Assembly: GCA_034670405.1 (NCBI GenBank)
Contig: JAXDDX010000001.1
Coordinates: 8,463,001 to 8,527,000, forward strand
Length of the DNA stretch: 64,000 nt
Reading direction: 5' to 3'
DNA from: Hoplostethus atlanticus
Taxonomy: Eukaryota; Chordata; Actinopteri; Trachichthyiformes; Trachichthyidae
Below the pieces are notes generated by a model. It saw only the letters and a list, made by a program, of their open reading frames with translations. It did no database searches and was not told the origin of the DNA. Within the stretch, counting starts at the first letter, position 1. Each line of letters opens with the position of its first letter. This document shows, in pieces, positions 1 through 64,000 of the stretch. A program made the position numbers and the translations under genes.

Positions 1-2778
1 TGTCTCCGTTTGTCTCTGGAGCGCATTGGCAGCCATCTTGTCTTCCTCAAGATAGATGGAGAGGGGAAGGTGCTTGGATCATCTCTGCAGACCCTTAGAG
101 AGCTGGTGAAAGAGACTGGGGCAAGGACAGTGCTGGCTAATGCCCTCTACGAGCCCTGGCTGAAGGAGAGGGACGAAGCAGTGGCGTCCTCTCTGCAGAA
201 AGATGGTGTAGAATGTAGGATGGTCCACTCCTATTGTCTCAGAGACCCTTACTCTGTCAGCACAGAAGGGGTGGGACTCAGAGGTTAGCCACAACAGACT
301 GGAGTTGGTTTATTGAGCTTGCATTAATAACTCTTCATTAGATACTGGCAGTAACATCTTTTTGTGGTGAACTATATGTTTTCTTCTGTTGGTTCAGGGA
401 TTGGTTCAGTGTCTCACTTCATGAGCAGAACTCAGGCTCTGGGTTAGGTACTCCCCTGGATCCTCCTGTGTCTCTACCCACCCCCGCCCACTGGCCTCGG
501 GGCATTACTTTGGACATGCTGGGCCTGGCACGCATGCCCTGCAGGAAGGATGGCACCACGGTCAGTAACCACAGCAGAGCAGAGATACAGCCCGGATACA
601 GTGAGGAGACAACGAGACCATGAAGTACTGAATCATTTGCTTCTTTTTATATTTAGATTGACTGGGCGGCTAGCATCCGCAATTCCTGGGATTTCAGTGA
701 GGAAGGAGCTCATGCCCGGCTGGAGGCCTTTCTTCACGATGGTGGGACACCTTACACACATGCTGTATACATACTATAGACTGTTGATAGTAGAATGCTG
801 TGGCATTGTTTCTGTCTAAGTGTGTCATTGATCTAACAGTAATTTATAATATGTGTAATGACTCTTTCCATGTTTCTTAGGTGTGTATAGGTATGAGAAA
901 GAGTCAGGGAGGGCAGATGCCCCGAACACCAGCTGTCTGTCTCCCTACCTCCACTTTGGTTAGCTCAGCCCACGCTGGCTGCTGTGGGATGCCAAAGGGG
1001 CACGCTGCAGACCCCTCAAGTTCCAGCGCAAACTGGCCTGGAGAGATTTGGCCTACTGGCAGCTAACACTATTTCCTGACTTGCCCTGGGAGTCCGTCAG
1101 ACCTCCATACAAGGTAGAAATGGGCTGTAGACAGACAGGCCATTAGCCATTAAGATCCCTCTATATACTGTAAAACCCAAAGAAACACAGTCACATCAGT
1201 AATTACATGCCCATACCACACTATAAATAGACAAATCTTTGACAGACTTGCTCTCTCAAAATGTCACAGAGTTTTTCATCCATAGATATCTGCAGGCTCT
1301 GCGCTGGAGCAGTGAGCGTGGCCACCTGAAGGCGTGACAGCGTGGTAGGACAGGTTACCCTCTGGTGGATGCAGCCATGAGACAGCTGTGGCTGACTGGC
1401 TGGATGAACAACTACATGAGACATGTTGTAGCATCTTTTCTCATAGCATACCTGCATCTGCCCTGGCAAGAGGGCTACCGCTGGTTCCAGGTGAGATGTT
1501 CATGCACACACGCACAAAATACACTCACACACACATCATTTATAACATCTTGTGTAACCTTCACTTTATTCAAGGTTCCTTTGGTCATGGAAAATCTGGA
1601 TTATTTTTTTCAACATTTCCAGCTAGTACCAGTCCTAAGTGAAATAAGACCTGGGACATTCAGTTATTGTAACATGGACTCATGACAAATATTGGTCATG
1701 GAAATTGTGCTATATGTTGTGGAATAATCTTGCAAAAGTCATGGAATTTGATGAGCAAAGAGGTGTAAGATCCCAGTTTATTGTATCTAATGTCTACATG
1801 TGTGTGTAGGACACTCTGGTGGACGCGGACGTTGCCATAGACGCCATGATGTGGCAGAATGGGGGCATGTGTGTGCTGGACCACTGGAACTTTGTCATGC
1901 ACCCTGTCGATGCGGCACTGACCTGTGACCCCTGCGGCAGCTACGTTAGGAAATGGTGCCCTGAACTTGCAGAGCTGTCTGATGAGCTTATTCACAAACC
2001 CTGGAAGTGCCCCGCCTCCATGCTGCGGCGTGCAGGTGAGGGAGATGTTATGATCATCACAGCAAACAGGCAGTGAGGTTTCCAGTTGGCTTCTAAAGCA
2101 GACGTTTTTCTGTAGAATAGCTTGTCGATCTAAACACCACTTCTGTTTTGTATCACAATATCCACATCTCCCTCACAACATTACACAAACCTTGACAAGG
2201 AAATCTCCTGTCCTTCTCATCCTCGCTGCATAGGTGTGGAGTTTGGCCAGACGTACCCCGAGCGAATAGTCACAGACCTGGAGGAGCAGAGGAGCCAGTC
2301 TCTGCAGGATGTAGCTCTGGTGCGCAAGGAGTTTAGAGAGTATGTGGACAAGTGCTCAGGTCCTGACTTGGTGCCTCTGCCCCCACGCCTGGTCTCTGAG
2401 GCCCTGGGCTGGTCACACAGGGATGAGGGTGTGGTGGATACAGGAAAGCAGTTCCTCTTGCCTGTTATTACCCGCATGGAATTCAAACACCAGTTAGATG
2501 ATCCGGATGCAGATGCTGCCTCAAATCCCTACAACGCTGTTCTGAAGGGATATGTGAGCCGCAAGAGGGATGAGACCATTGCCTTCCTCGACGAGAGAGA
2601 CTTTACTGCCAGCGTGATGTATGAGGGAGCCCAGAGAAGGGAGAGACTAGAGAGTGATTATCGGAGAATGGAAGGACTCCCTCGGCCCCCCGCACCACGG
2701 GGCAGGGCCAGGCGAACTCCCACAGCCAAGGACAGGTTCTCTATAGTACCTGGAGGAGTGGTTACCCAACACAGGTGA
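1..2778 (+). pseudogene. Cryptochrome/photolyase-family gene (Cry-P-like), 3' part, inactivated
   Basis: Seen: coding pieces at 1-283, 398-560, 657-741, 881-1113, 1296-1490, 1810-2035 and 2234-2778, joined by GT/AG introns. They encode the photolyase alpha/beta segment (DPYSVSTEGVGLRG, then GIGSVSHFM) and the FAD-binding helical core ([38 protein letters not shown], then GMCVLDHWNFVMHP). A tail of about 120 residues follows, ending at a TGA at 2776. The family contains blue-light FAD photolyases and cryptochromes; the subfamily (Cry-P, the plant-like fish cryptochrome) is my inference. Odd: an in-frame TAG at 961-963 sits where the family has Gln in HFGQLSPR. An in-frame TGA at 1335-1337 replaces Trp in LKAWQRGRTG. 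The 398-560 exon changes frame between about 420 and 445, and its length conflicts with the phases of both flanking introns. The rest is well preserved, so loss looks recent. The 5' end lies outside the window. Confidence 0.8.
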
Positions 2779-3655: not shown

Positions 3656-5688
3656 TTAGTCCTCAATGGAGCGGATGTATCTCTCATACGCTGCCTCGTC
3701 CATTAGAGCGTCAAGCTCTGCAGGGTTGGCAATGGTCATCTTCATCAGCCAACCTATATTCAAGATCAGGATAGAGGTCAGGTTAAGTTAAGTGATGTTT
3801 AATAGGAAACATACATCCATGTATGAGAACGAATCAGTGAATTAATTCTTGATTTTTGTGTCATGCCACGAGATAACGACGTGAGACATCATAAACATGA
3901 AAATGAGCATTAGACAAGGCCCTGAAATGTTGTCACTCCCCTGCCTACTACAAACCAAACAGTGACAGAGGATATAGCTTCCATAACACTACATATAAAT
4001 TACTGCTCTTCACCTTCTGACATTCTAGTCTCCATTCTTTATCGCTTCCTCTAACTTTCCGATGTCTTCTCTGAATAAGAGAATGAGGGAGTATTTATGG
4101 GTGGATGCTTACCATCTTTGTAGCAGGATTTGTTGACCAGACCGGGCTTGTCTGCCAGTAGTGCATTGACCTCGACAACCTCTCCGGTCAAAGGAGAATA
4201 GAGCTCACTGGCTGCCTTCACACTCTCCAGAGTGCCAAACTCATCTGAGACAGGAGAGGTAAGCCGATTAGTAACAAGCACATATAAATCCAAGTCAGGT
4301 CATGTTAGAACCATGAGAAAGACACCTGGATAAATAGTGCTAAGTGATACAGGTCAGATTTAAGATTTCTTGGGTAACAGGCAGACTAAAGACAGACTAC
4401 AGTAGAGAAAATCCTTGTTAACAAGGAAGGAATTTTCTCCAATATGTAAAAGTCTGAAAGGCATAAAGCTCAAAAGTAAATACCAAGGTGGAGTGAAATA
4501 AAATAACAGCTTTTATTCAAGTGGCCTGACTACAAGTATTTTGTGCCAGTGGGCTTTTATAGCCAAATGCATTTTCATCATGGTTGGAAGGTAGCTGAAC
4601 ACCCGTTTTGCCTCTCTAAATAGGCGTGTGTCTGAAGGAGAAAACAAGTAGCTCTGGCAACAAAGTGCAGAGGGTTAATTCCTTTGGAAAATGTAATGAT
4701 GGTCCTGATTTTTAAAGGCCTGGAATTTTTACACAAAGAATTTCGATAGATTATTGAATGGAGTCTCAGAAAGGACCTAGCCATAAAGCAACTGGCACAA
4801 TACAACACAACTAACCCTATCTTATCAGTTTAATATCTGATACGTCCTCTATAAGGGGACTTTGTATTAAATGGATTTTTAGGATCAGGAGTCGAAAAAG
4901 GGTCTTGCTCTGTTCGCTCCACGCATCGACCCGGTATTGCACTGCCGCTGGGAACCTCTTATGCACACACACTTAGGTAGCGACTACACATAATTTATAT
5001 TATATTACATACATACAATTTCTCATTACTATATTTTTATATTTTTATAGTGCTCTTACTGTAAATATTGTGTTTTTTTTTTATATAGAGCTCTACTGTA
5101 ATACTGTAAATATTGTGTTGGTTTTTTATTGTAAATAGTGTGAACTTGTTGCCCTTTGCACATTCCTGTTGAGCATTGCCACTTTTTCATTTCACTGCAC
5201 ACCCCGTGTGTGTATGTGACAAATAAAGTTCTTGAATCTTGAATCTCTTTTCTGTTTATCATCTTTAATATCCATATGGTTGTTTCTATGTGGGTAGAAC
5301 CAAAACAAGATTAGAAGTTTAGCTTTTGGGACAAAAAATGCCATTCATACTGGGAATCAAGTTTTCATGGATGTGCATTATTGATCTACTGTATGTCATC
5401 CTCTGGTGGGGTGGAGACAACCATTTCCTGAAACAAGATGGGGCTACTGTGGTCAGGTTGCTAGACTGCTGACGAGCTTCACGCTTTTCACACTTATACT
5501 TTATTTACAAGTATTACAAGTAAGGCTTTTTCTCCAAAGCTTTTTTTTTTTAAACAGTAGCCTGCCCTCCATACCTTGTTGAGCCAGCTGTGTGCCCACC
5601 TCTGGCAGTCCACAATAAACTACATCTCCCAGAGCCTCCTGTAAATGTCAAAACAGCAAGGACGAGTTTAGTCTCAAAGAAACCTCCA

Positions 5689-5734
<46 letters not shown>

Positions 5735-6261
5735 GTGTGAGTACATGCACACATCCAGGGACCGTACCTGTGCAAAGTTACTGATACCGACAGTTCCTAT
5801 TTCACCCTCTTCTACTCGGATCCATTCGTGCTTGTCTGTGAATTTTAGCGCTGCAAGATAACAGAGCGACACACTCAAAAACACAGCAGCCTTGCATTAA
5901 GAGTTTAAAGTATGTTGTGATCCCTGGGCACTGTGACAGCCAGGAAGAATATAGAGATTTCACCTGCCGCTGCCCAAGCTGACAGATACAGGTGTCTAAC
6001 AGTGGCGACAGGACTGTCCTTTTCATTCTAGGTACCCTTGCTAATGCTAATGTTAGCTGCATGCTACACTTACATAAGTAAATAACTACAACAAGTAAAC
6101 AAGTAAATACCTGCTAGTAAACGGCTAGAAGTGGAGAGACTTCGTTGAAAATAATGTTTCGATGCCAGTCGCAATGGAGAAAGGGGTGCGGAACGGGTAA
6201 GTAACGGCAAAGCTGTTGAAAAGTTGGAAGATAAGCAACGGAGCAACCCACAAGCAGCCAT
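3656..6261 (-). CDS. gcsh: Glycine cleavage system H protein, mitochondrial (complete, five exons)
   Basis: Carries the lipoyl-bound aminomethyl group between the P, T and L proteins of the mitochondrial glycine cleavage complex. Coding exons in order: 6261-6111, 5850-5768, 5638-5575, 4244-4113, 3753-3656. They join with consistent phases (1, 0, 1, 1) into about 175 residues; the human protein has 173. Residues 1-50 ([14 protein letters not shown]...) are rich in Arg, Ser and Leu without acidic residues, as in a mitochondrial presequence. The mature part opens with [20 protein letters not shown]. The lipoylation motif [13 protein letters not shown] puts the lipoyl lysine at about residue 109. 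The C-terminus [12 protein letters not shown] is typical. All key residues are present and I see no breaks. An out-of-frame ATG at about 6322 could open a short uORF if the 5' UTR extends that far. The window does not show whether this is a or b of a teleost pair. Confidence 0.95.
4905..5250 (+). mobile_element. Non-LTR retrotransposon (LINE) 3' tail in gcsh intron 3
   Basis: AT-rich 3'-UTR-like sequence is followed by CATTCCTGTTGAGCATTGCC, a CATTTCACTGCACA segment and GTATGTGACAAATAAAG. It ends in a short TTGAATC tandem tail. This matches the 3' ends of widespread teleost L2/Rex-type LINEs as I remember them. No coding part remains and the 5' boundary is uncertain. Confidence 0.55.
5696..5731. 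repeat. (TA)n microsatellite in gcsh intron 2
   Basis: About 34 bases of alternating T and A lie about 40 bases inside the intron, just downstream of the exon 2 donor at 5767. Confidence 0.9.
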
Positions 6262-7773
6262 TTTTGTCGCGTTCTGATGACAGCAACGATAGCAAAGACT
6301 GTGTAACGAAATGTTGACTCACTTAATAGTTAAAATACTGGCCCATCTTCCGGTTACCCGAGAGACGTATCTGGTACAGACCTGACACAACCGGACACAA
6401 CAGCTACTTATTACGGAAACGTACATTTTAGTTCTGGCTGTTAACAATACTTTCGTTGTGTGTATTTTGGTCAAACTAAACCAAACTAAAGATATCTTGG
6501 TATTTTTAAAATGAATGCAAACATATAACGAACAACGGAAATGCCGTTAGAGTGACAGCTCCCGATTTTTTCTCTTTGCATTGACCTCTCTGCAGCATTT
6601 CCATCAATGTGAGTCGCATGCGATATGTATCACCAGAGTCTGTGGGGACGCACGCTTTTTGTACAGCACAATTAGTTATATGGACAGTTAAAGCGAGCTG
6701 GCATTTCAAACCCATCGACGCTTCACATGTTTAAAAGCCGCCTTACAAGGCTTCATATGTTCATAAATCTTACACATAAAATATTCTCAGACAGCAAGTT
6801 CAATTAAGTCCAATTAAGTCCAAAACCAAGTTGCCGTCGCCCGATTATCTCTTCTTTTTGTACACATTGATCCATTTTATGCGTTATGTCACCTTACTGG
6901 GAATCGTGTTCACAACATAATAATTATACTTATTTGAGATTTGTTTTAGGTTGGCCTCTGTCGCCCCCATGTGGTTAAACCATTTCCAGTTTTGGTAGAT
7001 GGGACGGTCTTTATCCTGAGAAAGAAAGAGACAGAGTTTGTTGCATTTCAGAAGTAGCCTCCTCGCGTTAGTTTCGCCTTGCAATTAAGTTTCCCAGCAT
7101 GCCATAGTCGCCATTAAACATTGTTCAAATCCTTGACTAAATAACCTACATTTATCAAAGAGATTACGTTTTGGTTTACTGCTTGGCTGTAATATAAAGA
7201 CTGACACTAGTTGGGTTAAAGACAACCTCCCTGACTCTAGCAGCACACAAAAGAAAGAAAAATTAATGGAACATGTTAAAATGATGTTTATTTCAAAGAA
7301 GAGGTTGTATCTGGAGAGGAACACAGGAGTGTGTTATAAATCAACTTGTTCCCATGAGAATAATGATCAGTGTTTGGAGATACACAGACCAGGATGTCAG
7401 ACCTATCACATTCTTTTGTGTGATATTTATCTAACCACGATATGGGCACCACAAAGCAATCACATTCTACTTTCCCACATCATGTAGAGTGATAGCTGAA
7501 TATGCTAAATTGTTTTGCAGCCCCTAATAGTCACTCTAACTCTGATTTGCTGTTTGAAATGTTTTGTCTAAATGTTTTCGGGAGCCAAATAGATATTCCA
7601 AGGACTATGCAATCAGTTAAATCTTTATGACAGGTGGCTCTCGTGTATACACTTCCAATTATACTTTATAATCCTTTGCTCGTTAAAAGCACACAAAGAC
7701 CGATAAGGCAGGCCTCACGCCTTATTCTCATTTACCAACCTAACAAAACTTAAATTATTTATTTAGTAACACT
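6262..7773. other. Spacer between the gcsh 5' end and the fam107b 3' end
   Basis: Apart from the gcsh promoter region I see no gene here. The open frames are short and resemble no protein I know. There is a small 12-base tandem (CAATTAAGTC) near 6800. No transposon could be recognised. Confidence 0.5.
6345..6365. promoter_or_regulatory. ETS-type site upstream of gcsh
   Basis: CTTCCGGTTA lies about 90 bases upstream of the gcsh start codon. An ETS/GABP-like CTTCCGG core is common in TATA-less promoters of nuclear-encoded mitochondrial genes. No TATA box is seen. The function is inferred from motif and position only. Confidence 0.4.
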
Positions 7774-8608: not shown

Positions 8609-33080
<24,472 letters not shown>

Positions 33081-35555: not shown

Positions 35556-36579
35556 AATTTACTATGTCTCAACACTCATTCAGTTTATACAAGATAATAC
35601 AAAATCCAATCTGAACGCTATCATTATAGCCTACATAAGCAGATATATAACCCTTTCTACTCTACATGACCTGAGCTGAATATGCCTTAGTCACTAAGGC
35701 ATACTTTGACTTCCCTCTGGTGGTCAGCGATAGGAACTACAATGGTCAAAAATACCCTGTATCCAACAATACTAAAGCTATTTTAAAAGATGAAACATTT
35801 CAAGTGCCATTCGAAATAGAAATTATTTCAACGATATCATTCAGTAAACAGATCCGCAACATTAAAGTAATGACATCGATGTGCGTGTGTGAATATAAGT
35901 ATGCATTTCAGCATATCATTTCATAATATTTCACCTAAATGCATTAAGATAGCCAGTAAAATAATGCATTTTGTGTCTATCTGTATATCCTCATGGCAAC
36001 GTCACGAGAGCGTCAGAGTCGGTGGATAGAGGCGCACATCTGCGTCGAGCTAGTCACTTACAGCCAGAATACTACCAGAAGTAAGACATGCCTTCAAAAT
36101 AAAAGCATAAAATGTGTCACTTTTGAAAATATAATAGACTAAGTACGGAGCAACTCGACCTGTAAAATAGATACTAAAAATAATATATTGTATTATTTTG
36201 CACGGAATTTCTCTATGAAAGATGTCTATGTCTATGTCTTGTGGGCGGGTAAAATTAAGTCTCAAAAATATTATTTGGTGACTTCAACACAAAAACAGAT
36301 CCCTCCTTGTAACACGTTCGTCAATGGGGGTTTTATATTGAAAGCTGAACCGGAAGAGTTTTTTTTCCTCTGGCTGGCTTGATTCTGGTGAAGCGGCACT
36401 TGAGCGGCCAGTCAGTATGTAATCGCAGGTGAGGAGGGTTACAATCTCATCTGCTGTCGAGACGAAACAGAGGCAGTGTGGATTCATATCTAACCACGCA
36501 ATAATCTGTCTCGGGTTTATGACAGAATTATTTCTCCTGCATCGTATTTGTTTCGTTTTTTTCCGCTCGGTGATCTACA

Positions 36580-48918
<12,339 letters not shown>

Positions 48919-55927: not shown

Positions 55928-64000
<8,073 letters not shown>

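Follow-up and report, generated by a model that had tools for sequence, protein, structure and literature searches.

At its left edge, the window analysed here (the whole stretch of 64,000 nt, positions 8463001-8527000 of contig C1) holds a cryptochrome-like gene with an interrupted reading frame. This raises the question of which member of the photolyase/cryptochrome family the gene represents, and whether and why it has been lost in Hoplostethus atlanticus. The assembly searched comprises 632.8 Mb in 1161 contigs, and its exon structure, microsatellites and gene content suit a bony fish. Coordinates given below are based on the window, with negative numbers lying upstream of it.

Gene model and subfamily identity

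The gene was modelled on the plus strand with nine exons and with GT/AG at every modelled junction. Exon phases are consistent throughout the model except around exon 4. The earlier statement that the other exons are well kept was supported. The first-pass annotation had placed the start of the gene at position 1, which proved wrong, as the gene is truncated by the window edge and its exons 1-2, together with the start of exon 3, extend up to 1.9 kb upstream. This upstream part is lesion-free. Exon 1 (-1903..-1676) and its start codon are predicted solely from the frame and the splice sites, and the exon had no family match in the profile search; exon 2 is located at -905..-224. Exon 3 (-28..283) encodes the alpha-beta (antenna) domain (PF00875, E-value = 2.6e-13 over 1-282). 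It is lesion-free, with phase 1 on entry and on exit and a GT donor, and it was recovered by the antenna-domain search of the genome at C1:8462974-8463267 with zero stops. Exon 4 (398..560) spans 163 bases and has a broken frame, its entry and exit frames being in conflict, while exon 5 (657..741) is lesion-free. Exon 6 (881..1113) holds a TAG lesion and exon 7 (1296..1490) a TGA lesion. The latter exon covers the core of the FAD-binding domain (PF03441, E-value = 7.5e-25 over 1338-1490) and has phase 0 at both ends in the exon frame. Its acceptor, ctgcag followed by GCT with the exon starting at 1296, keeps that phase; an alternative acceptor at 1285 was rejected because phase 0 would be lost. 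Exon 8 (1810..2035; PF03441, E-value = 2e-17 over 1810-2034) is lesion-free, and so is exon 9 (2234..2778), which forms the C-terminal end and closes with the final stop TGA at 2776-2778. The intron between exons 7 and 8 contains a non-coding, SINE-like dispersed repeat on the plus strand (1615..1795).

By sequence, the gene is a PCRY-like (CryP) cryptochrome, an assignment that we base on three motifs. VGLR (pl1) lies at the end of exon 3, WRDLAY (pl2) in exon 6 and MWQNGG (pl3) in exon 8; all of them were found. Both the PF00875 alpha-beta domain and the PF03441 FAD-binding domain were matched, piecewise by exon. The best PDB match of the exon pieces was the DNA photolyase 4u63 (E-value = 3.5e-65), a class III CPD photolyase of bacterial origin; the best plant-type cryptochrome was 6lz7 (E-value = 1.7e-53). 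Although 4u63 and the plant cryptochromes of the PDB are the closest by sequence, they belong to another subfamily and are intact. As for the motifs, MWQNxG (pl3) is present in 100/103 PCRY-like members and in 0/2144 other sequences (PMC9498864, section 36), while WRDLAY (pl2) occurs in 83% and VGLR (pl1) in 74% of PCRY-like members (PMC9498864). The motifs are shared with the PCRY-like (CryP) proteins of fishes, frogs, molluscs and diatoms (Deppisch et al., 2022, PMC9498864; Oliveri et al., 2014, cited by PMC10733189). With the known PCRY-like systems the gene also shares the FAD domain and an aquatic animal host, and here too the genome holds DASH; unlike the known PCRY-like genes, its coding sequence is broken by three lesions. 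Identity as a plant CRY was rejected, given the presence of VGLR, WRDLAY and MWQNGG. The plant photolyase PPL was likewise rejected. Its three motifs, ESxSxxPVYCFDPR, BSJYGANFSCKI and FFRFxTxK as listed in PMC9498864 (section 27), were absent by eye from the exon translations, of which a small part of the broken exon was unreadable. The earlier description of the gene as plant-like was thus supported but narrowed to PCRY-like (CryP), and it does not extend to plant CRY or PPL. One scan of prokaryote contigs for relatives returned a single pattern match, which is not a relative, and one scan of viral contigs returned none.

The upstream exons (-1903..-224) encode a long N-terminal extension of ~245 residues that precedes the photolyase domain and carries a weak UIM-like motif, DDELEIALALSLLE (PF23625 UIM_2, E-value = 0.0096, 16.4 bits, under the cut-off of 21). 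Downstream in the window, GCSH (3656-6318) and GRM3 (57170-61268) are both located on the minus strand, each with one exon that matches its family in an open frame and with more exons recognised by eye. Between them, on the plus strand, lies a gene at 36574-48762 that we presume to be ELAPOR-like. GA-type and CA-type microsatellites of great length adjoin each other at 16749-17250.

Lesions and their expected effect

The assembled sequence shows three lesions, namely a broken frame in exon 4 and two stop codons, a TAG at 961-963 and a TGA at 1335-1337. The first had been described earlier as shifting the frame and breaking the phase agreement of the flanking introns, and exon length bears this out. 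The 163 bases correspond to 1 mod 3, whereas a preceding intron of phase 1 and a following intron of phase 0 require 2 mod 3. In the entry frame the exon reads GIGSVSHFMSRTQALG and then a stop, while the exit frame ends in GLGTPLDPPVSLPTPAHWPRGITLDMLGLARMPCRKDGTT. With modelled splicing, the first premature stop met is a TAG at 445..447 on the plus strand (codon 424 of 889), which lies 855 nt upstream of the last exon junction, is created by the frame break and precedes the flavin domain. The two nonsense codons reported in the first-pass annotation are also there, on the plus strand and in their exon frames, the TAG within HFG-x-LSPR. The further claim that both strike invariant positions stands for the TGA, as the residue is Trp in the relatives inspected, namely in 8/8 other FAD-domain loci of the genome (by eye) and in three PDB alignments. 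It fails for the TAG, where the aligned residue is Glu in three PDB relatives and Cys in the eight other loci.

A normally spliced transcript would stop at 445-447 as a result of the frame break in exon 4, ahead of the FAD-binding domain, and would be expected to undergo nonsense-mediated decay; the protein is probably absent. Either the TAG at 961 or the TGA at 1335 alone would leave little or nothing of the flavin domain. In other respects the exons retain a coding character: 2 premature stops occur in the 888 codons of the exon frames, vs 75 stops in 2651 codons when all three frames of these exons are pooled, and coding composition is still strong (GC3 of 0.62 vs 0.385 in introns).

The age of the loss was estimated from 2658 coding bases, in which 4.0% of random substitutions are nonsense (transition weight 2). 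Neutral divergence as estimated from the two nonsense codons is 1.9%, with a Poisson 95% interval of 0.23-6.75%. If 2, 4 or 8 changes per billion sites are assumed to occur each year, the loss would date to 9.4, 4.7 or 2.3 million years ago, respectively, all with wide limits. A calculation on all three lesions, in which indels were assumed to arise at 0.1 times the rate of substitutions, put the divergence at 0.9% (0.19-2.6%). The lesions are few enough to fit the recent loss proposed before, and we infer a recent date on these figures.

Copy number and related loci

The FAD-domain search of the genome returned 25 exon matches at nine loci, among which the window's is the sole PCRY-like one by sequence. 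At the DNA level, no second copy of coding length was found among 40 scored of 434 candidates when positions 1-2778 were used as query; the 39 matches from elsewhere in the genome all fell inside 1615-1795, i.e., within the intronic repeat. With 1810-2778 as query, both candidates (2/2) were scored and neither was such a copy. A second copy or haplotig elsewhere was rejected, as nothing of coding length was found. The frame is disabled and the genome searches yielded no intact copy, as in a unitary pseudogene. A separate stretch of 88 bp at C1:5082000-5082087, 3.4 Mb away, shares 80% identity with a portion of exon 9 within otherwise unrelated sequence and looks like an old partial duplicate.

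Regarding the other loci, C60 matches the DASH model and C82 the class II CPD photolyase model (partial matches, below the whole-protein cut-offs). By a reading of their peptides, we take C10 to be the 6-4 photolyase and C9, C13, C120, C316, C1:13.1M and C1:18.7M to be animal-type cryptochromes. The DASH exons are open along the length of a zebrafish DASH protein, and the single exon missed by the alignment is present in an open frame. The exons of the C82 and C10 loci are open as read exon by exon, a reading that could miss a frame break at the junctions. All 25 FAD-domain matches were examined for stop codons. Five matches contain six stops in total, of which five border introns and one, the TGA of the PCRY-like gene, is internal; the match at C316:46226-46396 is open. 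Among the 24 matches of the antenna-domain search, five (at C316 and C9) hold six stops, each of which we read as lying at a splice donor or beyond it. General decay of the photolyase/cryptochrome genes was not seen, the stops of the other loci being placed by our reading at the edges of introns or inside them. At C316, an animal-type cryptochrome is preceded by two near-identical copies of a first exon (C316:22637-22819 and C316:28414-28599), spaced 5.8 kb apart. The GTAAG at the splice donor of the second copy is missing from the first. Exon 1 may have been duplicated in tandem recently, or the assembly may have produced the pair.

Explanations and meaning of the probable loss

Taken as a whole, these data make it highly probable that the gene is a recently inactivated (unitary) pseudogene of a PCRY-like/CryP cryptochrome and the sole copy found in the genome. 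This is supported by three independent lesions in one coding sequence, with the first stop as early as codon 424, by the presence of a single PCRY-like gene among the nine FAD-domain loci with all three motifs kept, by the retained codon composition and by the open DASH exons. It is unlikely that this is a null allele restricted to the individual or strain sequenced, other members of the species commonly having intact copies. Such an allele would agree with the small number of lesions and with a neutral divergence interval that extends down to 0.2%, but time is needed for three separate lesions to accumulate on one haplotype. Nor did the DNA searches of the assembly turn up a copy from a second haplotype, although it would be missing if a single haplotype had been kept. 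The disabled state of the pseudogene is presumably fixed in the species.

A dim, deep or nocturnal habitat had been suggested as the driver of the loss. In its favour, PCRY-like proteins are presumed light receptors and the deep-living coelacanth has lost light-sensitive members of the family (PMC9498864, section 47). However, the DASH (C60), 6-4 (C10) and class II CPD (C82) loci are lesion-free in what was read. PCRY-like genes are, in any case, found in many but not all fishes, usually alongside DASH (PMC9498864, section 47). The blind cavefish Phreatichthys andruzzii offers a comparison, as it likewise shows loss of function in light-dependent flavoprotein genes of a fish: its 6-4 and DASH genes carry loss-of-function changes and CPD is kept (PMC12340131). 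Here, 6-4 and DASH are lesion-free as read and the PCRY-like gene is broken. Since the pattern is, in what was read, the reverse of that of P. andruzzii, a dark habitat is a poor explanation, and we find this suggestion unsupported and rather improbable. The loss would instead be confined to the PCRY-like gene, and relaxed selection on a dispensable light sensor may be its cause, as opposed to decay of the whole light response.

An error of assembly or base calling, with the living gene intact, has a low probability. Small frame breaks are a frequent error type of long-read assemblies and one of the lesions is of this kind, but the remaining 2/3 are substitutions to stop codons. In addition, the neighbouring GRM3 and GCSH exons each match their family in an open frame, and the six stops of the five antenna-domain matches lie, by our reading, in intron sequence. 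The absence of internal stops from the exon matches of the other family loci, the TGA of the PCRY-like gene being the only stop away from an edge among the 25 FAD-domain matches, argues against general assembly noise.

What speaks against a pseudogene, and for a truncated product, is that all three lesions fall outside exons 1-3 (P = 0.16 by chance). It is very doubtful that a flavin-free protein of ~423 residues, encoded by exons 1-3 and the start of exon 4, is still in use; conceivably, such a product would comprise the N-terminal extension with its UIM-like motif and the antenna domain. Rescue by splicing was scanned over subsets of skipped internal exons combined with two cryptic exon 4 acceptors. 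These acceptors (exon start 436 or 448) both open exon 4 in the correct exit frame, and yet translation still stops at codon index 504 or 500. No full frame resulted from skipping up to two internal exons, with or without either acceptor. Over all internal-exon subsets and the two acceptors, the smallest frame-restoring changes remove three exons, among them exons 6 and 7 with the nonsense codons; splice rescue was rejected for the variants tried. With early stops after either cryptic acceptor, and a full frame attained only when three or more exons are skipped, we expect no working flavin domain, and a gene kept functional by alternative splicing that removes the frame break is hardly credible.

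As a unitary pseudogene, the case looks like an ordinary but informative recent gene loss. Horizontal transfer is seen by one paper as an important contributor to the patchy pattern of PCRY-like genes (PMC9498864, section 36), while another reads the pattern as frequent loss (PMC10733189). No earlier report of a PCRY-like pseudogene in a fish was found in searches of open-licence papers. With PCRY-like genes scattered across aquatic animals, a readable remnant is direct evidence that this patchiness involves loss, and its exons, splice sites and genomic place are still legible where a search of annotated proteins might just report absence. It also provides an example of a genome with PCRY-like broken and DASH kept. 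Since the function of PCRY-like proteins is described as largely unknown (PMC10733189), fishes that have lost the gene would serve as natural knock-outs.
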